From Solirubrobacterales bacterium (lineage in GTDB: Bacteria; Actinomycetota; Thermoleophilia; Solirubrobacterales; Solirubrobacteraceae): a stretch of DNA of 64,000 nt. The stretch lies in contig JAFAYV010000009.1 of assembly GCA_019240115.1 (NCBI GenBank), positions 1 through 64,000 of the forward strand, in the 5' to 3' direction. A model generated the notes under the pieces. The model ran no database searches, was not told the DNA's origin, and worked only from the letters and a program-made list of their open reading frames with translations. The position numbers were made by a program, and so were the translations under genes. Below are positions 4,789-19,522 of this stretch, piece after piece (position 1 is the stretch's first letter; every line of letters starts with the position of its first letter).

Positions 4789-5922
4789 TCAGGCCAGCGC
4801 CGCCGTCGGCAGCTGACCCTGGGAGACCTCTTCGCGGACGATCGCCACCCCGTCGACCAGCGCGCGCAGCTTGCCGAGGCAGATCATCCTCGGCAGGTTG
4901 ATCATCCCGCAGTCGGTGGTCAGCCCCAGGCGCTCGGCGGGGACGACCTTCAGGTACTCGCGCACCCGGCCGGCCACCTCCGCGGCGGTTTCGGTGATCG
5001 TCGACTTGACGTCGATGACGCCGGCGACGAACGGGCGGTCCCAGTGGTTGTCGAGCAACGGGCGCAGGTCGTCGGTGCCGGTGCGGCCGAGCTCGTAGTT
5101 GAGCACGTGCATGTGCGCGTCCGAGGCCTTGGGGAAGATCCCGTGGGCACGCTCGGGGGCGGGCGCGTCGGGGGGCCGGCGGTCCAGCAGCCAGGCGCCG
5201 TTCTCCTTGTCGCCGTCGTCGGGGAAGTAGCCGGGCGTTCCGGAGTAGTTGCCCCAGCAGGTGTGGGTCCAGAACTGCACGCCGGGCACGCCGTCGACGG
5301 CCAGGTTGTAGACCTCGACCTCCCAGTCCGACATCCCGTATGGCCAGACGAACTCGTCGAGCTGGATGATGTCGACCCCCTCCTCGGCGAGGCGCAGAAA
5401 GTCCTCGTGGTAGGCCGTGGCGATCTGCCGGGCGAGCGCGGCGGTGTCCTTGTAGTACTCGTCGTTGGCGGCCAGCGCCAGGACCTGGATGCCGGTGTAG
5501 GAGATCTTGATCGGCTTGCGCGTGGCCTTGCGCATCGCCCGCAGGTGCGCGAGGTGGAACGGCGCGATCCGCTGCACCTCGCCGACGATCGTCGGCGCGA
5601 ACAGCGTCGAGTAGATCGGCAGGCCGATCGGTGGCCCGGTCAGCCGGTTGCCGCTCATCCGCTTCCAGTAGTAATAGACGATCTCGCCGTAGGGGCTGTC
5701 GCCCCCGTACACCTTGCCGTCGGCGATGATGTCCAGCCCGGCTTCCTCCTGGTCTTTGACGATCGCGCCCACTGCGTCGTCGAAGGCCTCCTTGTGCGTG
5801 CCATCGTACGAGAACTCGCCGATCGGCATCTCCGAGAAGTCGCGACCGTCGTACCAGCGCGGGTTGGGATAGTTGCCCACCATCGTCGTGGGGAGCAGGA
5901 TCTCCTGGTCTGCGACGAGCAT
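4789..5922 (-). CDS. Epoxyalkane:coenzyme M transferase / MetE-family zinc alkyltransferase (paralog 2)
   Basis: Member of the cobalamin-independent methionine-synthase C-terminal family, in which zinc activates a thiol for alkyl transfer. From ATG 5922 the protein has 377 residues, the length I recall for Xanthobacter epoxyalkane:CoM transferase. This start has a strong GGAGGTG ribosome site 8 bp upstream, preferred over ATG 5988. Zinc ligands are visible as His220 and Cys222 (WTHTCWG), Glu277 (NYELGR) and Cys338 (TTDCGM). The N-terminus has the barrel motif LLPTTMVGNYPNPRW and later GLDIIADGK. It lies within the left-pointing operon holding CoA-transferase, acyl-CoA synthetase, aldehyde dehydrogenase and comA. 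It would add CoM thiolate to an epoxide, but a methyl- or other thiol-transfer role cannot be excluded. A second paralog is at 15577-16656. Confidence 0.8.
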   Translation of the reverse strand: MLVADQEILLPTTMVGNYPNPRWYDGRDFSEMPIGEFSYDGTHKEAFDDAVGAIVKDQEEAGLDIIADGKVYGGDSPYGEIVYYYWKRMSGNRLTGPPIGLPIYSTLFAPTIVGEVQRIAPFHLAHLRAMRKATRKPIKISYTGIQVLALAANDEYYKDTAALARQIATAYHEDFLRLAEEGVDIIQLDEFVWPYGMSDWEVEVYNLAVDGVPGVQFWTHTCWGNYSGTPGYFPDDGDKENGAWLLDRRPPDAPAPERAHGIFPKASDAHMHVLNYELGRTGTDDLRPLLDNHWDRPFVAGVIDVKSTITETAAEVAGRVREYLKVVPAERLGLTTDCGMINLPRMICLGKLRALVDGVAIVREEVSQGQLPTAALA

Positions 5923-5987
5923 GCCTTCACCTCCGGGTACGGCGGGATTGAATGCGGCGACCGTACGGCCACCGTCCGGCGCGCGCA

Positions 5988-8090
5988 TTAGCTCCGAGCG
6001 AGCAAATCCGTTTCGGCATTGCGCCGTGTCGCGCCGGCGCCGATGACCCGCAGATCGACGGCCACGGCGCCGTCGGGACGGGCGATGATCGGGTTGAGGT
6101 CGAGCTCTGAGATCTCGGGCACGGCGGCCAGCAGCCGCGACGCCGCGGCGACGGTCTCGGCGAGCGCGTCGAGGTCGACGCCCGCGGCGCCGCGAACCCC
6201 CTCGAGCACGGCGAAGCCGCGCAGCGACCGCAGCGCCGCCTGGGCCTGCGGCGGGGTCAGCGGCGCGAGGCGGAAGGCGACGTCGGCGAGCACCTCGACG
6301 AGGATGCCGCCGAGCCCGACGGCAACCACCGGCCCGAACTGGGGGTCGCGGAAGCCGCCGATGATCACCTCGGTGCCCGACACCATCGGCTGGACCATCA
6401 CCGCGGCGTCGTCGGCGAGGCCGAGCAGCTGCGCGGCGGCGTCGCGGACCGCGTCGGCGCCGGCGAGGTCGACGTGCACCCCGCCGACCTCGGACTTGTG
6501 GATCTGGGTCCGGCTGACGAGCTTGGCCACGACCGGGAAGCCAATCCGTTCGGCGGCCCGCGCCGCCGCCTCGGCGTCGCTCGCGATCGCCTGCGGCGCG
6601 ACGTCAATGCCGAACGCCCGCGCGAGCTCGGCCGCCGCCGCCCCGTCAAGCGGCCCCTCGCCGACCTCGGGCAGTCCCTCGGGCGCCGGGGCGGCCTGGG
6701 CCCGCTCGTCGCGCGAGTGGCGCACGCGACCGTAGCGATGCGCGAGCGAGGCGGCCCGGGCGGCCCGCACCGGCCACTCATAGCAGGGCACGCCCGCGGC
6801 CTGCAGCAGCTCCAGGTTGGGTCGCGCGTCGGCGGGCGCGACCCAGCAGATGTAGAGCGGCACCTCGATCCCGTCGGTGGCGAGCCGCCGCGAGACCTCG
6901 CGCATGCCCTCGGCGACCGCCCGGTCCTGGGCCGAGCGCGCGAGCAGGACGGTGACGACGATGTCGACCTCGCCCGACCGCGCGAGTCGATCGCTTGCGT
7001 ACGGATACAGCTCGGCGAACTTCGCCCACGCGGTCGTCACGTCGACGGGGTTGCGCGGGCTGCCGACCGCCGGCAGCCGGTCGGCGAGGTCGGCCTGCAG
7101 CTCGGAGGAGAGCTCGGGCACCGTCAGGCCGCCCTCGGTGAGCAGGTCGGTCAGCTCGACCCCGACGCCGCCGGAGTTCGTCACGACGCCGACCCGGCCG
7201 CCGCGGGGCACCGGCTGCCAGTCGAGCGCCCGGGCGAGGTCGAGCATCTCGAGGCCGCTGTCGGCGACGATCGCGCCTGACTGCTCGAGCGCGGCGCGCC
7301 AGAGCTCGGCGTTGCCGGCGAGCGCCGCGGTGTGCGACGCCGCCGCACGCAGGCCGGCGGCGGTGCGCCCCGTCTTGGTGACGATGACCGGCTTGCGGGG
7401 CGCGATCTCGCGGACCGCCTCGCAGAAGTCGCGGCCGTCGGGCATCGACTCGATGAGGAAGCACAGGACCTCGGACTCCGCGTCGCCGCCGAGGTACTCG
7501 AGCACCTCGGCGTCGCGGATATCGCAGCGGTTGCCCGCGGCGTAGAGCTTGGCGAAGTTCATCTGCTGCTCCTGGCCGAGCATGTAGATCGCCATCCCGT
7601 AGGCGCCCGATTGGGTCGCGAGCGTGATCGCGCCCGCGGTCGCGCCGGTCCCCAGCGCCATCGTGGCGTTGAGACCGAGGTGGGCGTTCTGGACCCCGAG
7701 ACAGTTGGGGCCGACGATCCGCACCCCGCCCGCGCGGCCGGCCTGCACCACCCGGCGCTGCAGCTCGGCCCCGGCGTCGCCGGTCTCGGCGAAGCCGCCG
7801 GAGACGACGACCAGCGCCCCGACGTCGGCCGCCGCGGCGTCGGCGACGACTTCGAGGATCGCCTTGGCGGGCACGATCGCGACCGCGAGGTCGATCCGAT
7901 CCGGCGCATCGGCGAGCCGGGCGTAGGCGCGATGGCCGAGGACCTCGTCGCGCGACGGGTTGATCGGTACGACCTCGCCGGTGAAGCCCTCGAGGTTGCG
8001 CATGAACGACGTGCCGACCTTGCCATCCTGGTCCGAGGCCCCGACGACCGCGACGCGCCGGGGCGCGAAGACCCGCTCCAGACCGCTCAC
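5988..8090 (-). CDS. ADP-forming acyl-CoA synthetase (acetate-CoA ligase family)
   Basis: Single-chain NDP-forming acyl-CoA ligase of 700 residues, related to succinyl-CoA synthetase. The N-terminal CoA-binding domain (1-130) has VFAPRRVAVVGASDQDGKVG, and the ligase domains follow. The phosphorylated histidine is His253 in SHTAALAGN. The C-terminal ATP-grasp domain (about 470-700) shows FPVVAKLVS, HKSEVGGVHVDL, MVSGTEVIIGGFRDPQFGPVV and ELDLNPI. Its start overlaps the stop of the CoA-transferase beta subunit by 4 bp. With the CoA-transferase next door the window has two ways to activate a carboxylate such as acetoacetate or acetate produced from epoxide breakdown; the true acid is unknown. 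Confidence 0.88.
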   Translation of the reverse strand: MSGLERVFAPRRVAVVGASDQDGKVGTSFMRNLEGFTGEVVPINPSRDEVLGHRAYARLADAPDRIDLAVAIVPAKAILEVVADAAAADVGALVVVSGGFAETGDAGAELQRRVVQAGRAGGVRIVGPNCLGVQNAHLGLNATMALGTGATAGAITLATQSGAYGMAIYMLGQEQQMNFAKLYAAGNRCDIRDAEVLEYLGGDAESEVLCFLIESMPDGRDFCEAVREIAPRKPVIVTKTGRTAAGLRAAASHTAALAGNAELWRAALEQSGAIVADSGLEMLDLARALDWQPVPRGGRVGVVTNSGGVGVELTDLLTEGGLTVPELSSELQADLADRLPAVGSPRNPVDVTTAWAKFAELYPYASDRLARSGEVDIVVTVLLARSAQDRAVAEGMREVSRRLATDGIEVPLYICWVAPADARPNLELLQAAGVPCYEWPVRAARAASLAHRYGRVRHSRDERAQAAPAPEGLPEVGEGPLDGAAAAELARAFGIDVAPQAIASDAEAAARAAERIGFPVVAKLVSRTQIHKSEVGGVHVDLAGADAVRDAAAQLLGLADDAAVMVQPMVSGTEVIIGGFRDPQFGPVVAVGLGGILVEVLADVAFRLAPLTPPQAQAALRSLRGFAVLEGVRGAAGVDLDALAETVAAASRLLAAVPEISELDLNPIIARPDGAVAVDLRVIGAGATRRNAETDLLARS

Positions 8091-8917
8091 GCGACCGCGA
8101 CCTCGCCGTGCAGGGTGTAGGCGCGCGCGAGGTCGGCGGAGCCGAACTCCGATCGCCGGACGCCCGTCGGGTCGACCTCGCGGACCGTCCGCAGCTCGGC
8201 CTCGGTCGGCGGCGTCATCGTCTGCACCCGATCGGCGACCTCGAGCTCGAAGCCGGTGGCGCCGCGCACCGCCTCGACGTCGACGTCGGGATACAGGCGG
8301 GTCAGCCGGGCGCGGCCCTCGGGGAAGTCGAAGGCGCCAAGGTCGGTGATCATCGCCTCGGGCCCGCCGCCGGGAAAGCCGAGCTCGGTGCGCGATCCCG
8401 CGGGGGTGCGATGACCCATGTCGGTGATGAAGTCACAGCGCTGCACGAGGGTCCGCCCCGAGCCGTGGCGGGTCGTCCAGATCGTCAGCGCGCCCACGGT
8501 GGCCGACAGGTTGCAGCCGCCGCCCCCGCCCCCGAGCTTGACCTTGGGCCGGTCCCGGGGCCCGATCATCGACACGTTCGTGTTGCCATAGGGGTCGATC
8601 TGGCCACCGGAGAGGAACATCCGATCGAGATCCCCGCGCGCGCCAAGGTCGAAGAGCTCCTCGAAGCGAAGGACGTGGGGCGCGCCGGTCAGCAGCGACC
8701 AGTCGTTGGAGGTCGGCGGGAGAAACGCCGGCACCGGGTCCAGCGCGTAGGTGGCGCCCTCGATCAGGACCATGTGCGGCGCATGGGTGCGCTTGGCGAC
8801 GTGCATCGCCACCTGCGCGCACGGACTGCCGAAGCCGTGAAAGACGATCTCGCCGTCGCCGATCGTGCGCGCGAGCTCGACGCACATCCACTCGTCGAGG
8901 GTGAAACGTGGATTCAT
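8087..8917 (-). CDS. CoA-transferase family I, beta subunit
   Basis: Glutaconate/3-oxoacid CoA-transferase-type beta subunit, 276 residues from ATG 8917. That start makes an ATGA overlap with the alpha subunit's stop. FHGFGSPCAQVAMHVAKRT gives the N-terminal fold, and Glu53 in MVLIEGATYA fits the catalytic glutamate position of glutaconate CoA-transferase beta. GGQIDPYGNTNVSMIG and a glycine-rich GGGGGG stretch follow, as in the family. A longer reading frame upstream to 9118 lies entirely over the alpha-subunit gene and is rejected. It pairs with 8914-9831. In the CoM setting it could move CoA onto a beta-keto acid; that assignment is inference. Confidence 0.87.
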   Translation of the reverse strand: MNPRFTLDEWMCVELARTIGDGEIVFHGFGSPCAQVAMHVAKRTHAPHMVLIEGATYALDPVPAFLPPTSNDWSLLTGAPHVLRFEELFDLGARGDLDRMFLSGGQIDPYGNTNVSMIGPRDRPKVKLGGGGGGCNLSATVGALTIWTTRHGSGRTLVQRCDFITDMGHRTPAGSRTELGFPGGGPEAMITDLGAFDFPEGRARLTRLYPDVDVEAVRGATGFELEVADRVQTMTPPTEAELRTVREVDPTGVRRSEFGSADLARAYTLHGEVAVA

Positions 8918-9831
8918 GCCATCAGCTCCTGCCAGCGCTCGGGGGACTCGTCGAAGGTCCGCAGGCGCGCGAGCGCCGCCTCGCCGATCTGGTCGCGGTA
9001 GTGGCACTCGTCGGGTGCCAGGTAGGTCTCGAAGTACTCGCGGATCCCCTCGTCGCCGGCGGCGGCCGCGATCCAGGCGGCGATGTGCTCGCGGTCGTAG
9101 GTGTAGTGCGGGTAGCACGAGGTCGGGTGTGCCCCGTAGGGGGCCTCGACGACCGCGTCGACGAGGAAATAGGGGATCGTCACCCCGGCGGCCGAGACCT
9201 CCTGCGAGCTCGCCAGCCGCTCGACGGTGACCACGACCCGCCGCGACGCGAACGCGAAGCGCTCGTCGAGCACGAGCGGGCGGCGCACGTGGACGTTGCC
9301 GTGCTGGTCGGCGAGCAGGCCGTGGATGAGGGCGACGTCGGGGGCGAGCGGGGGGACCGCGATCAGCCGCTGGCCGGTGAACGGGCAGGTGATCTCGGAG
9401 TACTCGGGGTGCAGATGCAGGACGTCGGAGCCGATGATCCCGCGCACCGGGATGAACGGCAGCCCGTACTCCGCCGCCCGCAGCTGCTGCAGAATCGTGT
9501 AGCAGCAGCTCTCGCGCAGCTGGACGGCGCCCTGCCCGGCGGCGCGCCGGTACGCCGGGGCGAGCCCGAAGTCCTGCTCGAACCCGACGTAGCTCTGCTC
9601 GACGACGCCGATCGCCTCGGCTCCGATCAGCTGGTCGACATCGATGCCGTGGGCGGAGCCGACGACGTGCAGGTCGCGGCGACCCTGTCGGATGAGCTCG
9701 CGCACGAGCGCCATCGGCTCGCGGTGCGACAGCCCGCCGCCGATCGCCACCACGTCGCCGTCGGCGACGAGGCCGGCGGCCTCGGGCAGTCCGCAGCGCT
9801 TGTCGTCGGCGGTCCGGCGGCGCACGGTCAT
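8914..9831 (-). CDS. CoA-transferase family I, alpha subunit
   Basis: Glutaconate-type CoA-transferase alpha subunit, 305 residues from ATG 9831, which overlaps the stop of the upstream SDR gene by 4 bp (ATGA). Visible features are GLVADGDVVAIGGGLSHREP near the N-terminus, VGSAHGIDVDQLIGAEAIG, PPLAPDVALIHGLLADQHGNV in the centre and a long C-terminal part (YDREHIAAWI). The chain of 4-bp overlaps from SDR through alpha and beta subunits to the acyl-CoA ligase indicates strict co-translation and shared function. The carboxylic substrate is not readable; acetoacetate or a larger beta-keto acid is suggested by the carboxylase at 10735-12291. Confidence 0.87.
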   Translation of the reverse strand: MTVRRRTADDKRCGLPEAAGLVADGDVVAIGGGLSHREPMALVRELIRQGRRDLHVVGSAHGIDVDQLIGAEAIGVVEQSYVGFEQDFGLAPAYRRAAGQGAVQLRESCCYTILQQLRAAEYGLPFIPVRGIIGSDVLHLHPEYSEITCPFTGQRLIAVPPLAPDVALIHGLLADQHGNVHVRRPLVLDERFAFASRRVVVTVERLASSQEVSAAGVTIPYFLVDAVVEAPYGAHPTSCYPHYTYDREHIAAWIAAAAGDEGIREYFETYLAPDECHYRDQIGEAALARLRTFDESPERWQELMA

Positions 9832-10616
9832 TGCGCGGTCATCCCTCCATCGACGGGGTGGACGGAGCCGGTCACGAACGCCGCCTCGTCGGAGAGCAGG
9901 AACAGGGCCGCGGCGGCGATGTCCTCGGGCTCGCCGAGGCGCCCGATCGGGTACTTCTCGATCGTCAGGTCCAGCCCGCGCTGCATGTCGCCCTCGCCGC
10001 GCTCGCGCAGCATCGGCTCCATCAACGGCGTGTACACGGTCCCCGGGCACAGGCAGTTGACGCGGATGCCCCTGGGCGCGAGGTCCACCGCCATCGACCG
10101 GGTCAGCGCCACGACCGCGCCCTTGGCCGCGCAGTAGGCGGCGAAGTTCCGGATCCCGACGAGCGCGGCCACCGACCCCTGGTTGAGGATCGCCCCGCCG
10201 CCGCCCGCCTCCAGGTGCGCGATGACCGCGCGCGAGCACAGGAACGTCCCCGTCACGTTGACCGCGAAGCAGCGCTCCCAGTCCTCGAGCGTGGCCCGGT
10301 CGACGGCGCCATCCGAGTTGACCCCGGCGTTGTTGTAGAGCAGGTGGATCGCCCCGAAGCGCTCGGCCGCCGCGTCGACCATCGCCGTCACGGACCCCTG
10401 ATCGGCGACGTCGACGGCCGCCGCGAGCGCGCGCTCGCTCCCGATCTCCCGGGCAACCTCCGCGGCCCGACCGGCGTCGAGGTCGGCGACGACGACGCGG
10501 GCACCGTGGGCGGCGAACAGCGTCGCGGAGGCCCGGCCGATGCCCCGTCCGGCGCCGGTGACGATCGCGACCTTGCCCTCGAGCCGGCCGCCGCCCTGGA
10601 CAGCGTCAACTGACAC
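9828..10616 (-). CDS. xecE: SDR similar to 2-(S)-hydroxypropyl-CoM dehydrogenase
   Basis: Short-chain dehydrogenase of 262 residues. The NAD site is TGAGRGIG (20-27); the catalytic residues are Ser148, Tyr161 and Lys165 (GSVAALVGI then AAYCAAKGA). The C-terminal half, with CPGTVYTPL, EKYPIGRLGEPEDIA and LLSDEAAFVTG ending in VDGGMTAQ, closely follows my memory of Xanthobacter S-HPCDH, which oxidises 2-(S)-hydroxypropyl-CoM to 2-ketopropyl-CoM. In that enzyme an Arg and a Lys hold the CoM sulfonate; here the Lys is kept (Lys221) but the Arg position appears to be Thr218, so the substrate may differ. First gene of the left-pointing operon, divergent from the 2-ketopropyl-CoM carboxylase gene 118 bp away. 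A generic alcohol dehydrogenase is the alternative. Confidence 0.78.
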   Translation of the reverse strand: MSVDAVQGGGRLEGKVAIVTGAGRGIGRASATLFAAHGARVVVADLDAGRAAEVAREIGSERALAAAVDVADQGSVTAMVDAAAERFGAIHLLYNNAGVNSDGAVDRATLEDWERCFAVNVTGTFLCSRAVIAHLEAGGGGAILNQGSVAALVGIRNFAAYCAAKGAVVALTRSMAVDLAPRGIRVNCLCPGTVYTPLMEPMLRERGEGDMQRGLDLTIEKYPIGRLGEPEDIAAAALFLLSDEAAFVTGSVHPVDGGMTAQ

Positions 10617-10734: not shown

Positions 10735-12291
10735 ATGACCGATCACTATCTCGACAACGCGGAGTGGCAAGCGGCGATCGCCGACGCCCTCGAGCGTCCC
10801 GACTCCGAGCCGATGTTCAATCTCCGGGACGACGGCGACGTCGTCTACGACGCGATCTGGGTCGGCGGCGGGGCCGCCGGTCGCTTCGGGAGCGCGTACC
10901 TGCGCGCGATGGGCAAGCGCCCGCTGGTGATCGATCGCTGGCCGTTCTTGGGAGGCAGCTGCCCCCACCAGGCGTGCGTGCCCCATCACCTCTTCTCCGA
11001 GGCGGCGGCGCTGCTCGATCGGTCGCGCTGGTTCTCGGGGGAGCTGTTCTTCCCCGAGTTCGACGAGTCCAGGGCGAGCATCCTCGACCTCGTCAAGCTC
11101 TTCCGGGCCGGACGCGGCTCCGCCCACGCGTTCATGAACTGGCAGACTCAGTCTCAGCTTGAGGTTGAGTTCATCCTGAACGCCACCGCCGAGGTCGTCG
11201 ATCGCAACACCGTGCGCGCCGCCGGGCGGACGTTCACCGCGGAGAACCTCGTGCTCGGGATCGGCGCCTATCAGAAGCCGTTGACCTGCCCAGGCGCCGA
11301 GCTGCCCGGGGTCCTCGACTGGGCCACGCTCGTCGAGGACCTCGACGAGGAGCCGACGCGGTGCGTGATCATCGGCGGCGGCAAGGTCGCGGTCGAGTAC
11401 GGCTCGTTCTTCCAGGCCACCGGGTGCCACACGACGATCGTCTCCCGCTCGCCGATCCTGCGCACGCCGAGCCTGCACCACGTCGACGAGGGGATCCGCC
11501 GGTACCTGCTCGAGGGGATGCGTCTGCGCGGGATGACGCTGATGGAGGGCACGTCGCTGATCGCGGTCGAGGGCGACGATCGGGTGACCGGCGCCCGGGT
11601 TCGCGATCCGGACGGCCGTGAGATCACGCTCGAGTGCGATCTCGTGTTCAACGCGACGGGCGAGCGCGCCAACAGCGACGCTGTCGTCGCCGCGCTGGGC
11701 CTTCAGACCGGCTCGGCCGGCGAGATCCTCGTCGACTCGCGGATGCGCACCAACGTCGAGGGCGTGTACGCGGTCGGCGACCTCATCGGCCCGCCGATGG
11801 AGATGTTCAAGGCGCGCAAGTGCGGCATGGCCGCCGCGCGCAACATCGCCGGGGAGCCGTGGGAGTTTGACTTCTCCGAGTATCCGGACTTCCTGCATTC
11901 GACCTACGAGGTGACCTGGGTCGGCCTCAGCGAGGAGGAGGCGCGCGAGCGCTACGACGACGTGACCGTCATCCAGATGCCGCCGAAGGGCATCGAGCAC
12001 GAGATCCCGCTGCCGTGCGCGGAGGGGACGATGCTCTACGCCTTCGCCCGCCCCGAGCTGACCGGCCTGCTCAAGTGCGTCATCGACGGCGAGTCGCGTC
12101 GGGTGCTCGGCTTCCACCACATCGGCTACGGCGCCAAGGACGCCTTCCAGTACCTCGACTACCTGCTGCGGCGGCCCGAGGGCCTGACCATCGACGAGCT
12201 CGGCGAGATGAACGAGCTGTTCCTCAACCCCGAGCACTTCATCCAGCTGTCCCGGCTGCGCGCCGGACGGCGCGAGCTGGTCGACCTCTGA
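10735..12291 (+). CDS. xecC: 2-oxopropyl-CoM reductase, carboxylating (2-KPCC)
   Basis: NADPH-dependent FAD disulfide oxidoreductase that cleaves 2-ketopropyl-CoM and carboxylates the product to acetoacetate, releasing CoM. 518 residues, against 523 recalled for Xanthobacter. Motifs: FAD site VGGGAAGRFGSAYLRAMG (43-60); redox cysteines Cys76 and Cys81 in GGSCPHQACVPHH; second nucleotide site IIGGGKVAVEYG; FAD contact YAVGDLIGPPMEMFKARK; C-terminal interface HHIGYGAKDAFQYL and LFLNPEHFIQLSRLRAG. Decisively, the usual His-Glu dyad of the disulfide reductases is replaced by Phe496 and His501 (FLNPEH), matching the Phe501/His506 pair that defines 2-KPCC. ATG 10735 is chosen over an upstream ATG at 10648 because the conserved N-terminus begins there. 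The next gene is an alpha/beta hydrolase 11 bp on. Confidence 0.95.
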   Translation: MTDHYLDNAEWQAAIADALERPDSEPMFNLRDDGDVVYDAIWVGGGAAGRFGSAYLRAMGKRPLVIDRWPFLGGSCPHQACVPHHLFSEAAALLDRSRWFSGELFFPEFDESRASILDLVKLFRAGRGSAHAFMNWQTQSQLEVEFILNATAEVVDRNTVRAAGRTFTAENLVLGIGAYQKPLTCPGAELPGVLDWATLVEDLDEEPTRCVIIGGGKVAVEYGSFFQATGCHTTIVSRSPILRTPSLHHVDEGIRRYLLEGMRLRGMTLMEGTSLIAVEGDDRVTGARVRDPDGREITLECDLVFNATGERANSDAVVAALGLQTGSAGEILVDSRMRTNVEGVYAVGDLIGPPMEMFKARKCGMAAARNIAGEPWEFDFSEYPDFLHSTYEVTWVGLSEEEARERYDDVTVIQMPPKGIEHEIPLPCAEGTMLYAFARPELTGLLKCVIDGESRRVLGFHHIGYGAKDAFQYLDYLLRRPEGLTIDELGEMNELFLNPEHFIQLSRLRAGRRELVDL

Positions 12292-12302
12292 GCCGGGGCC
12301 GG

Positions 12303-13157
12303 CTGGGACGGGAGGACGTCGAGTTTGCGTCGCGCGGCGCGACGCTGCGCGGCTGGCTGTACCGGCCGGCTGCGGGCGGCGCCGCGCCGGCGGTCGTGCT
12401 CGCGCATGGTCTCAGCGCGGTGCGCGAGATGTTCCTCGACGAGTACGCGCGGGCGTTCGCCGACGCGGGCTTCGCGGCGCTCGCCTACGACCACTTCGGG
12501 TTCGGGGCCTCGGACGGCGAGCCGCGCCAGTGGCCCGAACCGGGCCTGCAGCTGCAGGGTTACCGCGACGCGATCGCGTGGCTCGCCGACCGGCCGGGGA
12601 TCGAGCCCGGCCGGATCGGCGTCTGGGGGTCGAGCTGGTCGGGAGGACAGGCGATCGTCCTCGCCGCCCAAGCGGTGCCGATCCGCTGCGCGGTCGCCCA
12701 GGTGCCGACGTTCGGCGCCGGAGCGCCGGCGCGCTCGCGGGCGACGATCGCGACGATGGAGCGCGCGGTCGCCGAGGGTCGCACCGCGGACACGATCCCC
12801 GTCGTTCGCGACAGCGCCGAGGGCCTCGGGCTCCTGTTCAACGACCAGGCGGCCGCGTGGTTTGCCCGCGTCAGCGCGCAGCGCGCCCCGAGCTGGCGCA
12901 ACGAGGTCGGGATCGGCGCGCTGCTCGAGCCGTTCGCCCCGATCGATCATCTGCCCGACGCGCGGGTTCCGCTGCTGTTGATCGTCGCGTCAGACGACCG
13001 GCTGACGCCGCCGGCGCAGGGCGTCGCGGTCGCGCGGACCGTGGCGGGGGTCGAGGTGGTGCAGCTCGCCGGCGACCACTTCGCGGCCTACGAGGCCGGC
13101 TTCGCGGCGAGCTCCGGGGCGGCGGTCGACTTCTTCCGCCGCCACCTCGCGGGCTGA
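12303..13157 (+). CDS. Alpha/beta hydrolase (start uncertain)
   Basis: Serine hydrolase of about 284 residues. Features in order: VEFASRGATLRGWLYRP at the N-terminus, LAHGLSAVREMFLDEYA (oxyanion region), YDHFGFGASDG, the nucleophile elbow GVWGSSWSGGQ, and a C-terminal VPLLLIVASDDRLTPP with a late catalytic His (LAGDHFAAYE). It starts within a few bases of the 2-KPCC stop. No ATG, GTG or TTG lies in frame between that stop and the conserved N-terminus; CTG at 12303 is the nearest candidate, so either a rare CTG start or a sequence error is involved. The last codons (HLAG-stop) seed a downstream tandem repeat. The substrate is unknown; a role in releasing or trimming an ester or lactone in the pathway is inference. 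Confidence 0.72.
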   Translation: MGREDVEFASRGATLRGWLYRPAAGGAAPAVVLAHGLSAVREMFLDEYARAFADAGFAALAYDHFGFGASDGEPRQWPEPGLQLQGYRDAIAWLADRPGIEPGRIGVWGSSWSGGQAIVLAAQAVPIRCAVAQVPTFGAGAPARSRATIATMERAVAEGRTADTIPVVRDSAEGLGLLFNDQAAAWFARVSAQRAPSWRNEVGIGALLEPFAPIDHLPDARVPLLLIVASDDRLTPPAQGVAVARTVAGVEVVQLAGDHFAAYEAGFAASSGAAVDFFRRHLAG

Positions 13158-13228: not shown

Positions 13229-13241
13229 ACGCCCGCCGGGC

Positions 13242-14165
13242 TCAGTGGGTGCGGCCGCGGTCGACGATCTCGCCGTCGGGCTCGCCGTCGGGGTCGCCGG
13301 GAGCGAGCACGAGCTCGAGCTCAAGCGACACCCACGGCTCCTGGACGCCCGCCGGACGATCGGGATCGTCGGCGGCTCGCGGCTGAAACGTCCGCACGAG
13401 CCCGGGCTTGACCGCGAACACGGTGTCGCGCTCGAGGTAGTCGCTGTCGGCGTCGAAGATGTGCGTGGTCAGGTTGCGATGGCCCGGGGCGCGCGCGACG
13501 ATGTGGATGTGCGCCGGGCGCCACGGATGCCGGCCGGTGGCCTGCAGCATGCGTCCGACCGGCCCGTCATCGGGGATCGGGTAGGGGACCGGGCGGACCG
13601 CCCGGAACGCGAAGCGCCCGTCGGCGTCAGTGGCAAAGCGCCCGCGGAGGTGGTCGTCGGGCGCGTCGGGGTCCTGCACCGCGTAGAGGCGGTTGTCGCC
13701 GTTCTGCCACACGTCGAGCTCGGCGCCGGCGATCGGCGCGCCGTCGAGGCTCAGCACCCGGCCGTGCACCCAGGCCGGCGTGCCCGCGGCCTGTTCGGCG
13801 ATGCTCTCGCCGGACTCGCGCAGCGGCGAGTTCGCGACGTAGAACGGGCCCAGCACCGTCGATTCGGTGGCGTTCGAGGGGACCGGATGGGCGAGCGCGT
13901 CGACGAGCATCGAGACGCCGAGGCTGTCGGACCAGAGGATGAACTCCTGGCGCCGATCGTCGGTGATGTGCCCGGTGGCGGTGAGCGCCTCGATGGCGCC
14001 CGACCACTCGGCCTCGGTCAGCTCGACGTCGCGGACGAACGCATGCAGGTGGGAGACGAGCGAGTGCATGATCTCGCGCAGCCGGTCCTGGGGCGCGTCG
14101 TCGAAGCTGGCCAGGACCTGGGCGGTGATCTGCTCGGGCGTCACATTCTCGGGCACGGATCGCAT
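13242..14165 (-). CDS. Intradiol ring-cleavage dioxygenase (catechol/hydroxyquinol 1,2-dioxygenase family)
   Basis: Non-heme Fe(III) dioxygenase cleaving a vicinal aromatic diol between its hydroxyls. 307 residues from ATG 14165, preceded by tandem repeats. The N-terminal helical linker domain (LREIMHSLVSHLHAFVRDVELTEAEW) is characteristic of catechol and hydroxyquinol 1,2-dioxygenases. Then VLGPFYV and the beta-sandwich VHGRVLSLDGAPIAGAELDVWQ follow. Iron ligands appear as Tyr in NRLYAVQD, Tyr in PVPYPIP and two His in RPAHIHIVA. It lies between the CoM operons; whether it belongs to the same pathway or is a neighbour is unclear. Hydroxyquinol is somewhat favoured by the DVWQNGDNRLYAVQ pattern, but this is a weak call. 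Confidence 0.88.
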   Translation of the reverse strand: MRSVPENVTPEQITAQVLASFDDAPQDRLREIMHSLVSHLHAFVRDVELTEAEWSGAIEALTATGHITDDRRQEFILWSDSLGVSMLVDALAHPVPSNATESTVLGPFYVANSPLRESGESIAEQAAGTPAWVHGRVLSLDGAPIAGAELDVWQNGDNRLYAVQDPDAPDDHLRGRFATDADGRFAFRAVRPVPYPIPDDGPVGRMLQATGRHPWRPAHIHIVARAPGHRNLTTHIFDADSDYLERDTVFAVKPGLVRTFQPRAADDPDRPAGVQEPWVSLELELVLAPGDPDGEPDGEIVDRGRTH

Positions 14166-14169
14166 TATC

Positions 14170-14220
14170 GCCGCGCGCCCACGCGGGAACCGCCGCGCGC
14201 CCACGCGGGAACCGTCGCGC
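14170..14220. repeat. 22-bp direct repeat between two left-pointing genes
   Basis: Two perfect 22-bp copies (14170-14191 and 14192-14213, core CGCGCGCCCACGCGGGAACC) plus the first bases of a third. They fill the entire gap between the E2 stop and the dioxygenase start. Confidence 0.85.
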
Positions 14221-15566
14221 TAGCCGAGGAGGAGGCGCGTCGGGCGTTGCAGGCCGTCGCGGATCGCGGCCAGGAACTGCGCGGCGTCCGCGCCGTAGAG
14301 GATGCGATGGTCACAGGAGAGCGTCATCTCCATTCGCGGGCGGATCGCCGGCGCGCCCTCGTGGGCGACGACGCGGTCGCCGACGGCTCCGACGGCGAGG
14401 ATCGCCGCCTGCGGCGCGTTGACGATCGCCACGAAGCGATCGATGCCGAACATCCCGAGGTTCGAGACGGTGAACGTCGCGCCGTCGAGCTCGGCCGGGG
14501 TCAGCCTGCCGTCGCGCGCCCGCCGCGCGAGCTCGCGCGTGCGCCGTGCGATCTCCCCGAGCGAGAGCCGGTCGGCGTCGCGGACCGCCGGCACGAGCAG
14601 GCTCTCCTGCGCGGCGACCGCGAGCCCGACGCTGACGGGGTCGTGCAGCTGCCAGGCGCCGTCGCGATAGCTGCCGTTGGCGCGCGGCGTCCTGCGCAGG
14701 GCGAGCGCTGAGGCCTTGACCACGAAGTCGGTGACGCTCGGGATCGGCTGCTCGTCGGCTTCGGCGCGCATCCGCGCCCGGAGCTCGAGCAGCGCGGCCA
14801 TGTCGACCTCGACGGTCAGCGAGAAGTCGGGCACGACCTCGTGGGACTCCGACATCCGCCGCGCGATGACCTGCTGGACGCGCGTCAGCTTCTGCACCTC
14901 GCCGCCGTCACCGACGCGGTCGGCGGGGGGCTCCGGGGCGGACGGCTCACGGGCGGCGGACGCCTCGGGGGCGGCGGACGGCTCGGGGGCGGCGGCCTGG
15001 GCGGCCTGCACGTCGCGCTTGACGATCCGCCCGCGCGGGCCGGTGCCCCGCAGCGTGCCGAGGTCGACGCCCGCCTGCGCGGCGAGCCGACGGGCGACGG
15101 GAGAGGCGATGATGCGCTCGCGCGTGCCCGCTCCGTTGGAACCGGAGGCCGTCGCCGGCTCGGAAGTCGACTTCGGATCCGGATCGGCCGAGCCGCCCTC
15201 GGTCGTGGCGCCCTCGGCGACCTGCACCGGCTTCTCGCCGCCGCCTCCGTCGCTTGCCGAGCCTCGGTCGCTTGCCGAGCCTCGGTCGCTTGCCGAGCCT
15301 CCGTCGCTCGCCGAGCCCGCGTCGGAGCCCGAGGCGTCGCCGTGCAGCGTCGCCAGTTGGGCTCCGACATCGGCCGTCTCTCCCTCCTGCACCTCGATGC
15401 GCAGCACGCCGGCGGCCGGTGCCTCGTAGACCATCGTGGCCTTGTCGGTCTCGATCTCGACCAGGGGCGCGCCCGACTCCACGGACTCGCCGTCGGAGAC
15501 CAGCCAGGAGACGATCACCCCGGACTCCATCGAGTCCGAGAGGCGCGGCATGTTGACCGCCGGCAT
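14220..15566 (-). CDS. 2-oxoacid dehydrogenase E2 (dihydrolipoyl acyltransferase)
   Basis: Acyltransferase core of a pyruvate/acetoin/2-oxoacid dehydrogenase complex, 448 residues. One N-terminal lipoyl domain (1-80) has the lipoyl lysine in ETDKATM. A flexible linker (about 80-145) contains an 18-bp-period repeat encoding SASDRG units. The E3/E1-binding domain follows (ASPVARRLAAQAGVDLGTLRGTGPRGRI, about 150-180). The catalytic domain ends with the active-site histidine in SCDHRILYGADAAQ. In most E2 proteins the motif is HxxxDG; here the Asp is Tyr, although the His remains. Start ATG 15566 has a GGAGGG site. It is the last gene of the operon E1alpha, E1beta, CoM transferase, E2; no E3 gene is present nearby. 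Confidence 0.92.
   Translation of the reverse strand: MPAVNMPRLSDSMESGVIVSWLVSDGESVESGAPLVEIETDKATMVYEAPAAGVLRIEVQEGETADVGAQLATLHGDASGSDAGSASDGGSASDRGSASDRGSASDGGGGEKPVQVAEGATTEGGSADPDPKSTSEPATASGSNGAGTRERIIASPVARRLAAQAGVDLGTLRGTGPRGRIVKRDVQAAQAAAPEPSAAPEASAAREPSAPEPPADRVGDGGEVQKLTRVQQVIARRMSESHEVVPDFSLTVEVDMAALLELRARMRAEADEQPIPSVTDFVVKASALALRRTPRANGSYRDGAWQLHDPVSVGLAVAAQESLLVPAVRDADRLSLGEIARRTRELARRARDGRLTPAELDGATFTVSNLGMFGIDRFVAIVNAPQAAILAVGAVGDRVVAHEGAPAIRPRMEMTLSCDHRILYGADAAQFLAAIRDGLQRPTRLLLG
15250..15321 (-). repeat. In-frame 18-bp repeat in the E2 linker
   Basis: Four tandem 18-bp units (starts at 15250, 15268, 15286, 15304) encode Ser/Ala/Asp/Gly hexapeptides between the lipoyl and E3-binding domains. 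Such a linker is normally flexible, so length variation should be tolerated. Confidence 0.85.
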
Positions 15567-15576
15567 CGGCCCTCCG

Positions 15577-16656
15577 TCAGGCGGCGCCGACCGGCTCGGG
15601 CGCGGAGCTGCCGCTGATCTCCTTGACCACTTGGTCGCGGCCGTCGCACATGGCCTTCAGCTTCGCGTAGGCCATCGTGCGGCTGAAGTAGCCGAGGCCG
15701 CAGTCGGTCATCACGATCATCCGCTCGGCCGGGACGACGTCGATCGCCTTGTGGATGCGATCGGCGACGACCTCGGGGCTCTCGACCTGGGTGTCCTTGG
15801 AGTCGATCACGCCGATCCCCAGCACCTTGTCGGTCGGGAACTCGCGAAACGCGCCTATCTCGGCGAAGTCGCGGTGGGTGAACTCGAGGTGGATGACGTC
15901 GGCGGAGCTCTGGTGAAACAGCGGCATCATGTCGACCGCCTTGTTCTCCCAGACGTCGATCTGACCGTCGACGCTGCCGTAGCAGACGTGCCAGATCTTC
16001 GTCATCGTGATGCCCTCGAACATCGCGTTCTGGACGTCGATCTGCCACGTGTCCTGGGTGTAGGGCGGCAGCACGTCGATCAGCTGCACGGCCTCCAGGC
16101 CCATGTCCTGCAGGTAACGCAGCTCCTGGTTGAGCGCCTTGGCGATGTCGGTCGCCATCGCGACCTGGTCGCCGCCGTAGTGCTCGTCGTGCACGATCAC
16201 GCTCTGCTGGGCGGGGCCGAGCAGGCTGAACTTGAACGGCTTCTCGGTCGCGTTCTGCAGCGCGTAGACGACGCCCTCGAACATCGGGCGGACCCAGTGG
16301 ATCGGGCCCGAGACGACCGGCTTGTAGAACGGCCGGTACTTCTGACCGTCGCCGGGAGGACCGTAGAGCTCGAAGCCGCCGAGGTTCTCGGGCACGAAGT
16401 GGAAGATCGGCTCGAGCTGGAACCCCGGCGCCTCCCACTCGTAGTACTGGTGGCCGTCGGTGAGGATGTCCAGGCCGGCCTTCTCCTGCTCGTAGCAGCA
16501 GAGCTTGATCGCGTCCTCGTAGGTGACGCGGAGATCGTGGCTGCGGTAGACGGGCTCGTTCAGCGTCCCGAACACGCGGCCGCGGAGCCACTGGGGTCTG
16601 GGCAGCGCCCCGACGGTCGACGTGGGCAGCAGAACTTCTTCACCGCGTATCTGCAT
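15577..16656 (-). CDS. xecA: Epoxyalkane:coenzyme M transferase (EaCoMT) candidate
   Basis: Zinc-dependent thiol alkyltransferase of the MetE C-terminal family, 359 residues. The N-terminus LLPTSTVGALPRPQWLRGR resembles EaCoMT, as do YEDAIKLC, GLDILTDGHQYYEW and AVQLIDVLPPYTQ. Zinc ligands are visible: His223 and Cys225 in WHVCYG, Glu258 in HLEFTHRD and Cys319 in TDCGLGY. It would attack an epoxide with CoM thiolate to give a 2-hydroxyalkyl-CoM thioether, the first step after alkene epoxidation. ATG 16656 has an AAGGAGGAG site 6 bp upstream. It sits between E1beta (21-bp gap) and E2 (10-bp gap) of a 2-oxoacid dehydrogenase operon, an unusual arrangement. A methionine-synthase-like methyltransferase is the main alternative; the 2-KPCC and HPCDH genes nearby argue against that. 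Confidence 0.83.
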   Translation of the reverse strand: MQIRGEEVLLPTSTVGALPRPQWLRGRVFGTLNEPVYRSHDLRVTYEDAIKLCCYEQEKAGLDILTDGHQYYEWEAPGFQLEPIFHFVPENLGGFELYGPPGDGQKYRPFYKPVVSGPIHWVRPMFEGVVYALQNATEKPFKFSLLGPAQQSVIVHDEHYGGDQVAMATDIAKALNQELRYLQDMGLEAVQLIDVLPPYTQDTWQIDVQNAMFEGITMTKIWHVCYGSVDGQIDVWENKAVDMMPLFHQSSADVIHLEFTHRDFAEIGAFREFPTDKVLGIGVIDSKDTQVESPEVVADRIHKAIDVVPAERMIVMTDCGLGYFSRTMAYAKLKAMCDGRDQVVKEISGSSAPEPVGAA

Positions 16657-16677
16657 GTGTCTCTCCTCCTTCTCGGG

Positions 16678-17649
16678 TTAGCTCATCCGTCGCACGGCGG
16701 CGATGACGCGTTGCGCATTGGGGTTGACCTCCTCCTCGAGCACGCCGGCCGCGGGCAGCGGCACCGACGCCCCGCAGACGCGCAGGACCGGGGCGTCCAG
16801 GTCGTCGAATCCCTCGTCGGAGACGATCGCCGCCAGCGACGCGCTCCACCCGAGCTGCCCGGGACCCTCCTCGACGATGACCAGCCGGTTGGTCGTGGCC
16901 ACCGACCGCAGCACCGCGGCCACGTCGAGCGGCACGAGCGTGCGCAGGTCGATGACCTCGGCGCTGATTCCCTCGTCGGCGAGCTGGTCGGCCGCCGCCT
17001 CACAGATCCCGACCGTGAAGGCGAGCCCGACGAGCGTCACGTCGGAGCCCTCGCGCAGCGTGTGGGACTCGCCGAGCGCCACCACGTGGTCGCCGTCGGG
17101 GACCTCGCCGGTCCTGCCGTACAACCCCTTGTGCTCGAACACGAGCACCGGATCCTCCTCGCGGATCGCGCCCGCCAGCAGGCCCTTGAAGTCCGACGGC
17201 GTGGACGGGCAGGCGATCTTCAGCCCGGGCACGCACATCGCCCAGCTCTCGGCGGACTGGCTGTGCTGGGCGCCGAAGCCCAGCCCGCCGCCGCCGTTGG
17301 AGCCGCGCACGACGAGCGGCAGGCGGACCTGGCCGCCGGTCATGTAGCGCGTCTTGGCGATCTCGTTGGCGACCAGGTCCCAGCAGGTGGCGTAGAAGTC
17401 GGCGAACATGATCTCGGCCACCGGCCGCAGGCCTCCCATCGCGGCTCCCATCGCCGAGCCGACGATCGCCTGCTCGGAGATCGGCGTGTCCCACACCCGC
17501 TCGGCGCCGAAGCGGTCGACCAGGCCCGGCGTGGTCTTGAACACGCCGCCGGGCGCGACGTCCTCGCCGAGCAGCACCACCCGCTCGTCGCGAGCCATCT
17601 CCTGCTCGAGCGCGGCGCGGATCGCGTCCCGGCCGGTCAGCTCCGCCAC
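16678..17649 (-). CDS. 2-oxoacid dehydrogenase E1 beta subunit
   Basis: Thiamine-diphosphate-dependent E1 beta subunit, 323 residues from GTG 17649, which overlaps the 3' end of E1alpha by 13 bp. Recognisable stretches are RDAIRAALEQEMARDERVVLLGEDV (N-terminus, with the TPP-contacting Glu), GVFKTTPGLVDRFG, DTPISEQAIVGSAMGAAMGG, RPVAEIMFADF, GGGLGFGAQHSQSAE with the active-site His, and a transketolase C-terminal domain (VIDLRTLVPLDVAAVL). Forms the alpha2-beta2 decarboxylase with 17637-18659. Pyruvate, acetoin or another 2-oxo compound could be the substrate; the sequence seen here does not decide. Confidence 0.92.
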   Translation of the reverse strand: MAELTGRDAIRAALEQEMARDERVVLLGEDVAPGGVFKTTPGLVDRFGAERVWDTPISEQAIVGSAMGAAMGGLRPVAEIMFADFYATCWDLVANEIAKTRYMTGGQVRLPLVVRGSNGGGGLGFGAQHSQSAESWAMCVPGLKIACPSTPSDFKGLLAGAIREEDPVLVFEHKGLYGRTGEVPDGDHVVALGESHTLREGSDVTLVGLAFTVGICEAAADQLADEGISAEVIDLRTLVPLDVAAVLRSVATTNRLVIVEEGPGQLGWSASLAAIVSDEGFDDLDAPVLRVCGASVPLPAAGVLEEEVNPNAQRVIAAVRRMS

Positions 17650-18659
17650 GCGCTGCCCCCGTCGGCCCACACGTCGGTCATCGCCGTCTCGCCCTGGGGG
17701 GACGGCGCGGCCAGCGCACGCTCGGCGACCTCGTCGACGAGCTCTGAGACCTCGCGCTCGACGCCGTCGAGCTCCTCGGCGGGCACATCGCGCTCGGAGA
17801 GCACCGTGCGATAGCGGCCGACCGGCTCCTTGCGCGCCCACTCCTGCACCTCGGCCTCGGGCCGGTAGGCGGCCGGGTCGGCGAGCGAGTGGCCGCGCAG
17901 GCGGTAGGTCATCGCCTCGACGATCGACGGTCCGTCGCCCTTGCGGGCGCGCTGCACGCGCTCGGCGATGACGTCGCGCACCGCCTCGACGTCGTTGCCG
18001 TCGACGACGACCCGGTCCAGGCCGTAGGCGGACGCGCGGTCCGCGGCCGGGTGGCGCACCGGGGTGACCGCGGTGATCGGGGTGTACTCCATGTACAGGT
18101 TGTTCTCGCAGCAGAAGATCAGCGGCAGCTGCCACACCGCCGCGAGGTTGACCGCCTCGTGGAACGCGCCGATGTTCGTCGCGCCGTCGCCGAAGAAGCA
18201 GACGGTGACGTTGCCCTCGCCCTTGAGGCGTTGGGCCCAGGCCAGGCCGCAGGCGATCGGCAGGTGCGCGCCGACGATCGCGTAGGAGCCGAAGTAGCCG
18301 TGCTCGACGCTCGTGATGTGCATCGAGCCGCCCTTGGCGTCGCAAACGCCGCCCTCGCGGCCCAGGAGCTCGCGCAGGACCGCCTCGGGATCGGCGCCGC
18401 GGGCGAGCGCGTGCGCGTGGCCGCGGTAGGTGCCGATCGTCGCGTCGCCCTCGCGCAGGCAGGCGGCGACGCCGACCGAGATCGCCTCGTGGCCGTCGGA
18501 GAGATGGCCGGGGCCGTGGACGCCGCCGTCGGTCCACAGCTGGCGGGTCTTCTCGGCCATCCGGCGCGCCAGGAGCATCGAGCGATACAGCTCGAGATCC
18601 GCGGCGTCGGGGGGTGGCGAGAGTGTCCCGGCTCGGTCTGGAGAGGAGTCGTCGGCCAT
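17637..18659 (-). CDS. 2-oxoacid/acetoin dehydrogenase E1 alpha subunit
   Basis: E1 alpha subunit, 340 residues. The TPP/Mg motif GDG...NN is visible as FFGDGATNIGAFHEAVNL...CENN (about 165-198). GGVCDAKGGSMHI, HLSDGHEAISVG and YRLRGHSLADPAAYR (phosphorylation-loop region) are typical of acetoin and pyruvate dehydrogenases. It is the first gene of a left-pointing operon with E1beta, an EaCoMT-type gene and E2, and it diverges from the R-hydroxypropyl-CoM dehydrogenase gene across 113 bp. The operon lacks an E3. Linkage with CoM-pathway genes suggests that it oxidises a product of that pathway, or that an acetoin-type system became co-regulated with it; both are inference. Confidence 0.92.
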   Translation of the reverse strand: MADDSSPDRAGTLSPPPDAADLELYRSMLLARRMAEKTRQLWTDGGVHGPGHLSDGHEAISVGVAACLREGDATIGTYRGHAHALARGADPEAVLRELLGREGGVCDAKGGSMHITSVEHGYFGSYAIVGAHLPIACGLAWAQRLKGEGNVTVCFFGDGATNIGAFHEAVNLAAVWQLPLIFCCENNLYMEYTPITAVTPVRHPAADRASAYGLDRVVVDGNDVEAVRDVIAERVQRARKGDGPSIVEAMTYRLRGHSLADPAAYRPEAEVQEWARKEPVGRYRTVLSERDVPAEELDGVEREVSELVDEVAERALAAPSPQGETAMTDVWADGGSAWRS

Positions 18660-18772
18660 CGGTGCGGTGCGAGTTCGACGCTAACAGCGGGCCGCGCGAG
18701 CAGCTTTGGCCACGGGAGACAAAATCGCTTCACCGCGTTTCATTCCGGCGATCGCGGAGGTAGGTTTGGCGC
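18660..18772. promoter_or_regulatory. Divergent intergenic region, E1alpha / hydroxypropyl-CoM dehydrogenase
   Basis: 113 bp between divergent starts, relatively A-rich around 18718-18726 (GACAAAATCG). It must hold promoters for the dehydrogenase-complex/EaCoMT operon and for xecD. No clear consensus promoter or palindrome was identified. Confidence 0.35.
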
Positions 18773-19522
18773 GTGACCGCCGAGTCCGCGCAGCGCTGGA
18801 CCGCCACGCGCGCGATCGTGACGGGCGCCGCCTCGGGGATCGGCGCCGCGACCGCGCGGCGGCTCGGGGCCGCGGGGGTTGCGCTCGCCCTGCTCGATCG
18901 CGAGCCCGACGCGCTCGCCGCGATCGCCTCCGAGCTGGGCGCGGCCGCCTACGAGGTCGACGTCACGAGCCCGATCGCGGTCGACGACGCGGTGGCCCGG
19001 GTCGGGCCGATCGACCTGCTCGTCAACGCCGCCGGCATCACCGGCTCGCACGCTGCGGGCACCTGCCACGAGACGCCCGACCTCGAGTGGGAGCGGGTGA
19101 TCGCGGTCAACCTCACCGGGACCTTCCTCCTCTGCCACGCGGTGCTCCCGGCGATGATCGCCGCGGGCGGCGGCCTGATCGTCAACCTCGCCTCGATCGC
19201 CGGGATCGTCGCCTTCCCCGGCCGCTGCGCCTACAGCGCGAGCAAGGGCGGGGTGCTCATGCTGACCCGCTCGATCGCGGTCGACTACGGCGGTTCGGGG
19301 ATCCGCGCGGTCGCCATCTGTCCGGGGATGATCCACACCCCGATGACCGACTGGCGGCTGAGCGATCCCGCCATGCACGAGGAGATCGTGGCCCGCATCC
19401 CCCAGGGCCGGGTCGGCCAGCCCGACGACATCGCCGAGACGATCGCGCTGCTGGGCAGCGGCGCGATGGCCTACATGAACGGCGCGCCGCTCATCCTCGA
19501 CGGCGGCTGGACCGCGATCTAG
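18773..19522 (+). CDS. xecD: 2-(R)-hydroxypropyl-CoM dehydrogenase-like SDR
   Basis: NAD-dependent SDR, 249 residues, oxidising an R-2-hydroxyalkyl-CoM thioether to the 2-keto form. Cofactor site TGAASGIG (17-24); catalytic Ser141, Tyr154, Lys158. The CoM-sulfonate-binding arginines of the Xanthobacter enzyme (recalled as Arg152 and Arg196) align with Arg151 in AFPGRCAY and Arg195 in TDWRLSDP. The stretches AVDYGGSGIRAVAICPGMIHTPMTDWRL and the C-terminal LDGGWTAI follow that enzyme closely when read piecewise. GTG 18773 is preceded by GGAGGT. The stop overlaps the converging PucR gene by 4 bp. Presence of both sulfonate arginines makes this the best substrate-level call among the SDRs here. 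Confidence 0.9.
   Translation: MTAESAQRWTATRAIVTGAASGIGAATARRLGAAGVALALLDREPDALAAIASELGAAAYEVDVTSPIAVDDAVARVGPIDLLVNAAGITGSHAAGTCHETPDLEWERVIAVNLTGTFLLCHAVLPAMIAAGGGLIVNLASIAGIVAFPGRCAYSASKGGVLMLTRSIAVDYGGSGIRAVAICPGMIHTPMTDWRLSDPAMHEEIVARIPQGRVGQPDDIAETIALLGSGAMAYMNGAPLILDGGWTAI

Follow-up and report, generated by a model that had tools for sequence, protein, structure and literature searches.

The 133-kb contig C51 (JAFAYV010000009.1) of a Solirubrobacterales metagenome-assembled genome (MAG; GCA_019240115.1) opens with a 64-kb stretch (positions 1 to 64,000; called the window below) that appears to carry a real, near-complete epoxide pathway dependent on the rare cofactor coenzyme M (CoM). 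The pathway is of the EtnE type, and its host belongs to an actinobacterial class that is new for it. The gene set occupies a block of ~24 kb (window positions 1242-25349) and probably represents a chromosomal pathway for short-chain epoxides. All functional assignments made here rest on homology. The MAG is 4.03 Mb in size and 95.6% complete; ~4% of the genome may lie outside it. An rpoB tree that included named genomes, built from reading frames picked by homology, puts the MAG within the Actinomycetota (98/96), outside the represented Actinomycetes and Acidimicrobiia.

The block encodes a 2-ketopropyl-CoM oxidoreductase/carboxylase (2-KPCC) at 10735-12291 on the plus strand. Its best match in the PDB, over the full length, is 1mo9 at 545 bits; two 2-KPCC variants score 538-542 bits and the next protein only 125, a difference that rules out an ordinary disulfide reductase. 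The protein is 65% identical to the 2-KPCC of Nocardioides sp. JS614, 65% and 61% to those on pMYCCH.01 and pMYCCH.02 of Mycolicibacterium chubuense NBB4, and 51% to that of Xanthobacter autotrophicus Py2. All eight active-site residues checked are kept (R50, C76, C81, M134, M357, R361, F496, and H501, equivalent to R56, C82, C87, M140, M361, R365, F501, and H506 in Xanthobacter). In a tree of 84 2-KPCCs, the protein is nested in an actinobacterial/Chloroflexota clade with JS614 and NBB4; like the other enzyme trees of this work (EaCoMT, SDR, and Xcb, introduced below), this is a quick tree with SH-aLRT support only. A preliminary description of the window had recognized a 2-KPCC from Phe496/His501 and a CxxxxC motif, and homology confirms that assignment, with the Phe/His pair, the CxxxxC motif, and the sulfonate arginines all in place. 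Across the family, Tyr takes the place of the residue equivalent to His506 in 16 of 81 relatives, almost all of them from methanotrophs, within an NPxYFIQL or SPSYFIQL motif (L064, L067, L070-L079, L081, L083, L084, L086, and others), and carboxylation may be absent in these proteins.

Entry into the pathway would be provided by an epoxyalkane:CoM transferase (EaCoMT) at 4789-5988 on the minus strand. The protein is 66% identical to EtnE of JS614 and 63% to EtnE of NBB4, compared with 47% to XecA, and the tree places it in the EtnE clade (support 97). It retains the zinc ligands and the EaCoMT residue pattern, here N/K/D/K, which in 51 EaCoMTs is mostly Asn, Arg/Lys, Asp, and Lys at 694. By these measures it is a bona fide EaCoMT of the EtnE (ethene/vinyl chloride) type and not of the Xanthobacter xec type. 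Two EaCoMT-family zinc proteins had been proposed for the window; this one stands as an EaCoMT, but the second (MetE2, discussed below) does not, with 28-30% identity to EaCoMTs and one of the four pattern positions. A bona fide EaCoMT was found in only two of 232 genomes of the window's order, the other being G068, from another genus of the same family, which has a CoADR-ACoAS-EaCoMT run at 63-71% identity on a 4-kb contig. The MAG itself has a second EtnE-type EaCoMT on contig C29 (L171:2307-3455; 64-65% to the window copy and to NBB4 EtnE), which stands isolated next to a glyoxalase-family gene, between thiL/glyoxalase-like genes and housekeeping genes (rpsF, dnaB).

Two short-chain dehydrogenases/reductases (SDRs) are candidates for oxidizing the hydroxyalkyl-CoM formed by EaCoMT. 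The plus-strand gene at 18773-19522 encodes an R-2-hydroxypropyl-CoM dehydrogenase (R-HPCDH) type protein, with R-HPCDH 2cfc as its best PDB match (217 bits; next, 146). It falls in the R-HPCDH clade and keeps both sulfonate arginines, R151 and R195 (R152 and R196 of XecD), as the preliminary description had stated. Arginine occupies the two positions in 49 and 50 of 117 aligned SDRs, matching the 49-row clade on the XecD side. The 2-KPCC and R-HPCDH thus group with characterized XecC and XecD and not with ordinary disulfide reductases and SDRs. The minus-strand SDR at 9828-10616 is harder to place. Its best PDB match is the S-HPCDH 4gh5 (202 bits versus 186 for the next), in line with its earlier description as S-HPCDH-like, but it sits outside the XecE clade, in a separate clade of JS614/NBB4 SDRs, and shares 63-66% identity with the SDR found in the ethene-type clusters of JS614 and NBB4. 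Thr replaces the sulfonate Arg of XecE while the Lys is retained, at positions that we take to be the sulfonate-binding ones of 4gh5/4itu. The case for S-HPCDH identity is weak, and the protein may be a hydroxyethyl-CoM or an S-hydroxypropyl-CoM dehydrogenase of the JS614/NBB4 etn-cluster type.

The EaCoMT gene belongs to a minus-strand operon that runs from 10616 to 1242 with intergenic gaps of -22 to +22 bp. The SDR comes first, followed by CoA-transferase subunit a (CoATa; 8914-9831, start estimated; 63% to JS614) and subunit b (CoATb; 8087-8920; PF01144; 65% to JS614), an NDP-forming acyl-CoA synthetase of the acetate--CoA ligase family (ACoAS; 5988-8090; 51% to JS614 ACoAS), EaCoMT, an aldehyde dehydrogenase (ALDH; 3363-4766), a CoA-disulfide-reductase-like flavoprotein (CoADR; 2009-3352; TIGR03385 at 424 bits, below cut-off; 43% to the JS614 cluster's flavoprotein), and XcbB. 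The ALDH, which may act on malonate semialdehyde or a similar aldehyde, matches NF040648 (437 bits) and NF047626 (348 bits), both below cut-off; it is 47-51% identical to the ALDH of Chloroflexota 2-KPCC clusters (L036 and L092) and unlike that of JS614. Divergent from this operon are 2-KPCC and a predicted alpha/beta hydrolase that starts 8 bp past it (12300-13157, plus strand). Beyond these lie an operon for E1a-E1b-MetE2-E2-dioxygenase, the R-HPCDH gene, a GAF-PucR regulator, and XcbA-XcbD-XcbC.

In the pathway that we propose, EaCoMT would open the epoxide with CoM, and the SDRs would oxidize the resulting hydroxyalkyl-CoM, 18773-19522 acting on the R form and 9828-10616 on the S form or on hydroxyethyl-CoM. 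With epoxypropane as the starting point, reductive thioether cleavage and carboxylation by 2-KPCC would then yield acetoacetate; with epoxyethane, the product would be malonate semialdehyde. Its conversion to CoA esters could be the work of ALDH, CoA-transferase, acyl-CoA synthetase, and CoADR, in keeping with what has been proposed for ethene degraders. The published ethene scheme leads from 2-ketoethyl-CoM to malonate semialdehyde (CoM reductase/carboxylase), malonate (aldehyde/alcohol dehydrogenase), malonyl-CoA (CoA-transferase), and acetyl-CoA (PMC8727900, PMC6440738), and the window holds a candidate for every one of these steps.

The preliminary description had read the gene set as converting epoxypropane to acetoacetate. 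CoM-dependent epoxide metabolism is upheld by the grouping with XecC and XecD and by the Xcb genes; propene is not singled out, and the set lies nearer to EtnE-type clusters than to xec. A classic propene pathway as the sole physiological role would account for an R-HPCDH with both sulfonate arginines and for the Phe/His pair of 2-KPCC. The ethene/vinyl-chloride strains JS614, NBB4, and JS60 also have 2-KPCC and an R-HPCDH-like SDR, however, so these two genes do not mark propene use. In addition, EaCoMT groups with EtnE and not XecA, and CoA-transferase and synthetase are stated to play no part in propene metabolism (PMC6440738). An exclusive propene role is thus unlikely. Given that both EaCoMT and its operon are of the EtnE type, epoxypropane appears no more likely a substrate than ethene oxide.

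Among known systems, the actinobacterial ethene clusters of the EtnE type lie nearer to the set than xec does. The ethene/vinyl chloride cluster on pNOCA01 of JS614 shares the gene kinds SDR, CoATa/b, ACoAS, EaCoMT, CoADR, XcbB, 2-KPCC, and Xcb, at identities of 66% for EaCoMT, 63-65% for CoAT, 65% for 2-KPCC, and 48-54% for Xcb. It differs in its plasmid location, in monooxygenase genes that adjoin etnE, in XcbE between XcbD and XcbC, in another ALDH, and in MEDS regulators, whereas the window has E1-E2-MetE2 and the GAF-PucR regulator and lacks XcbE and monooxygenase genes. The etn clusters of NBB4 and M. rhodesiae JS60 (2-KPCC 61-65%, EtnE 63%, SDRb 66%) likewise differ in their monooxygenase genes, in MEDS/CdaR regulators, and, in NBB4, in XcbE. 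Py2 xec/xcb is more distant (2-KPCC 51%, R-HPCDH 48%, EaCoMT 47%, Xcb 38-45%) but has the same sulfonate-binding and Phe/His residues; there, xecA-C-D-E and xcb form a single run that includes XcbE, an alkene monooxygenase is encoded close by, and neither CoAT nor E1-E2 interrupts the xec genes. The epoxyethane/CoM clusters of Methylohalobius crimeensis and other methanotrophs (PMC11507031) share EaCoMT, CoAT, and Xcb, and M. crimeensis is also without a dedicated alkene monooxygenase; unlike the window, they have XcbE and a sulfoacetaldehyde-dehydrogenase-type ALDH, and many of their 2-KPCC-like proteins have Tyr at His506. The window is accordingly a variant, with no XcbE, an additional E1-E2-MetE2 operon, another ALDH, and another regulator.

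Four CoM biosynthesis genes, overlooked in the preliminary description, were recognized with NCBIfam and Pfam profiles, and they are 48-54% identical to their JS614 counterparts. XcbB (ComA, phosphosulfolactate synthase), for the first step, closes the EaCoMT operon (1242-2012, minus strand; PF02679 at 267 bits; TIGR03849 at 239 bits, cut-off 280; 51% to JS614). The others lie together on the plus strand: XcbA of the DUF7714 family (21555-22457; NF052538 at 318 bits, cut-off 150; 51%), XcbD, a predicted 3-sulfopropionylcysteine synthase (22489-23838; NF052536 at 627 bits, cut-off 600; 54%), and XcbC of the argininosuccinate-lyase superfamily, for phosphate elimination (23838-25349; NF052535 at 442 bits, cut-off 575; 48%). 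The chemistry of XcbE and XcbA is taken here as given by NCBIfam names and secondary papers. XcbB, XcbC, XcbD, and XcbA would synthesize CoM, and another enzyme would have to carry out the XcbE step.

The points that weigh against a working CoM pathway for epoxides concern this cofactor supply and the source of the epoxide. XcbD and XcbA exceed their curated cut-offs, but XcbC and XcbB fall below theirs. The pyridoxal-phosphate enzyme XcbE is absent from the whole MAG (best score 20 bits against a cut-off of 450), and XcbD and XcbC overlap by 1 bp, leaving no XcbE between them. It is also not concealed in the open reading frame at 1-1037, which encodes a sigma factor. From this absence, either another enzyme performs the XcbE step or the product is not CoM. 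On the side of the epoxide source, there is no EtnABCD-type (group 4) monooxygenase in the MAG, an absence that is not final at 95.6% completeness. Nor does the MAG have a copper membrane monooxygenase, although two methanotroph positive controls were detected, and this enzyme was rejected as the epoxide source.

The genome search for an alkene monooxygenase suggested in the preliminary description thus turned up no dedicated enzyme. The sole soluble diiron monooxygenase (SDIMO) of the MAG found in a PF02332 search is on contig C57 (L013:1757-10604), in the gene order alpha, reductase, and beta, then amidohydrolase and GroEL, with an IclR regulator in the operon. In NCBIfam, the alpha subunit has no match and the beta and reductase matches are below cut-off. 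From its gene order we take the operon to be propane-monooxygenase-like (mim/prm). These observations would fit detoxification rather than growth, with the CoM genes clearing epoxides from alkene co-oxidation by the C57 SDIMO, as proposed for methanotrophs that also lack an alkene monooxygenase and do not grow on ethene alone (PMC11507031). Epoxidation by the C57 enzyme is only putative, and the full downstream set of CoAT, ACoAS, ALDH, and CoADR points instead to assimilation, though not decisively, since the nongrowing methanotrophs have much of it. Detoxification is a serious contender, if somewhat short of an even chance.

A further operon of the block encodes, on the minus strand, E1 alpha (17637-18659; TIGR03182 at 330 bits; best PDB match pyruvate dehydrogenase E1 alpha) and E1 beta (16678-17640; NF006667 at 346 bits, above the cut-off of 321) of a thiamine diphosphate (ThDP)-dependent complex of the 2-oxoacid dehydrogenase family, MetE2 (15577-16656), and an E2 with lipoyl, E3-binding, and acyltransferase domains (14220-15566; PF00364, PF02817, PF00198). 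A catechol-type intradiol dioxygenase closes it (13242-14204; PF00775, PF04444) and has no counterpart in the other 2-KPCC loci seen. MetE2 is a divergent zinc protein of the MetE-C/EaCoMT superfamily; with long branches in the tree, it forms its own branch outside the 54-row EaCoMT clade, and its best plasmid-borne match reaches only 31%. It retains the zinc His/Cys/Glu/Cys, has the EaCoMT Lys as its sole match to the residue pattern, and carries Ala/His/Ile at the homocysteine Ser/Glu/Asp sites of methionine synthase, presumably positions 433, 484, and 599 in E. coli. The loss of these homocysteine-binding residues led us to reject a cobalamin-independent methionine synthase.

Relatives of these proteins recur beside 2-KPCC: E1a in nine loci, E1b (68-72%) in seven, and MetE2 (65-70%) in five, all from Actinomycetes or unclassified Actinomycetota and at 58-72% identity overall. 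The closest in layout (L039, L043, and L080) have the order 2-KPCC-SDR-SDR-regulator-E1a-E1b-MetE2 (E1a 60-62%, E1b 69-71%, MetE2 67-70%) but no E2 was seen in them, and their regulators are MEDS and a JS614-type helix-turn-helix protein. A CoM-linked role is likely. The operon could even belong to the pathway itself, with E1 cleaving 2-ketoethyl-CoM to release CoM and leave acetyl-ThDP, E2 forming acetyl-CoA, and MetE2 acting on the CoM thioether; sulfoacetaldehyde acetyltransferase offers a chemical analogy. The recurrence beside 2-KPCC, the completeness of all three E2 domains, and a MetE2 that lost its homocysteine residues yet kept the zinc site and the EaCoMT Lys speak for such a route. 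With no E2 seen at the other loci, and with an unrelated oxoacid or acetoin as conceivable substrates, we regard it as quite improbable.

A search across 84,980 species genomes, with the best 80 matches retained, found 89 relatives of 2-KPCC, and 79 distinct loci among them were kept. Their hosts include Actinomycetes, Acidimicrobiia, Ktedonobacterales/Chloroflexota, methanotrophs, and Alpha-, Beta-, and Gammaproteobacteria, and many of the longer loci have EaCoMT, HPCDH, CoAT, and Xcb genes. The preliminary description was correct in placing the set outside the classic hosts, but this is not new in itself; many other hosts besides Xanthobacter and mycobacteria have been recorded (PMC11507031; PMC6440738). 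What is new is the host class, in which 2-KPCC was found in one of 399 genomes, and our literature search for the host taxon with CoM found no relevant report. Such patchiness, together with the MAG origin, might suggest contamination or an assembly chimera that placed a foreign CoM block in this organism. This is most improbable: the block matches the rest of the contig and MAG in GC (0.728 versus 0.726) and in tetranucleotide profile, the second EtnE-type EaCoMT on C29 has a housekeeping context, the EaCoMT operon of G068 is found in the same family at 71%, and XcbA groups with XcbA of two family members.

Other genes at the edges of the block and beyond it were also assigned. The regulator between R-HPCDH and XcbA (19519-21573, minus strand; GAF plus PucR/CdaR type, PF13556 and PF13185) is a candidate sensor for the locus, and relatives at 34-42% lie near 2-KPCC in L015 and L018. 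An ECF-type sigma factor with sigma-70 regions 2 and 4 (2-1037) directly follows XcbB in the same orientation, close to where the contig begins. A [NiFe] hydrogenase (60983-63860) lies in a locus (51847-63860) that includes hypF, hypB, and a NifU-like protein. Its large subunit is closest to the actinobacterial-type HofG/HofK enzyme (5aa5 at 1051 bits; next, 155), which we take to be group 1h. The hydrogenase reported earlier is real and of this type; however, hypF and the structural genes are separated from the last CoM gene by 26 kb and 36 kb, respectively, a distance too great for the two sets to be called adjacent, and we saw no evidence of a link between them.

The most surprising lead is the CoM gene set without XcbE in two family members, G086 and G192. 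In these two genomes, as in the window, XcbA-XcbD-XcbC are contiguous with no XcbE, and the XcbA proteins of all three group together (99). XcbE is present in 25 loci that carry XcbC and XcbD; in six others (L021, L062, L070, L071, L073, and L075) the available stretch stops at the XcbE point, and in L078 there is no XcbE within 1.9 kb past XcbD. In G086 (L105:6882-20000, L106:906-5097) and G192 (L108-L109), XcbB, a CoADR-like gene, and XcbA-XcbD-XcbC surround a Nit1C-type cluster with FdrA and carbamate kinase; in G086 the MSMEG_0565, 0567, 0568, and 0572 families of this cluster score above cut-off. Neither genome has EaCoMT or 2-KPCC, or any enzyme known to use CoM, and a literature search for Nit1C with CoM found no relevant report. 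It is conceivable, though a long shot, that an XcbE-independent branch supplies the family with CoM or a closely related sulfonate thiol, partly for a non-epoxide use, and that E1-E2-MetE2 of the window is a new ThDP route from ketoalkyl-CoM to acyl-CoA.

The window places a CoM epoxide pathway in a class in which no 2-KPCC was found in 398 other sampled genomes, and ties it to a previously undescribed E1-E2-MetE2 module. Ethene is a plant hormone and a soil gas, which makes its sinks in uncultured actinobacteria ecologically interesting. As a rule, bacterial CoM is held to serve alkene metabolism only (PMC11507031); G086 and G192, if they make CoM, would break it.

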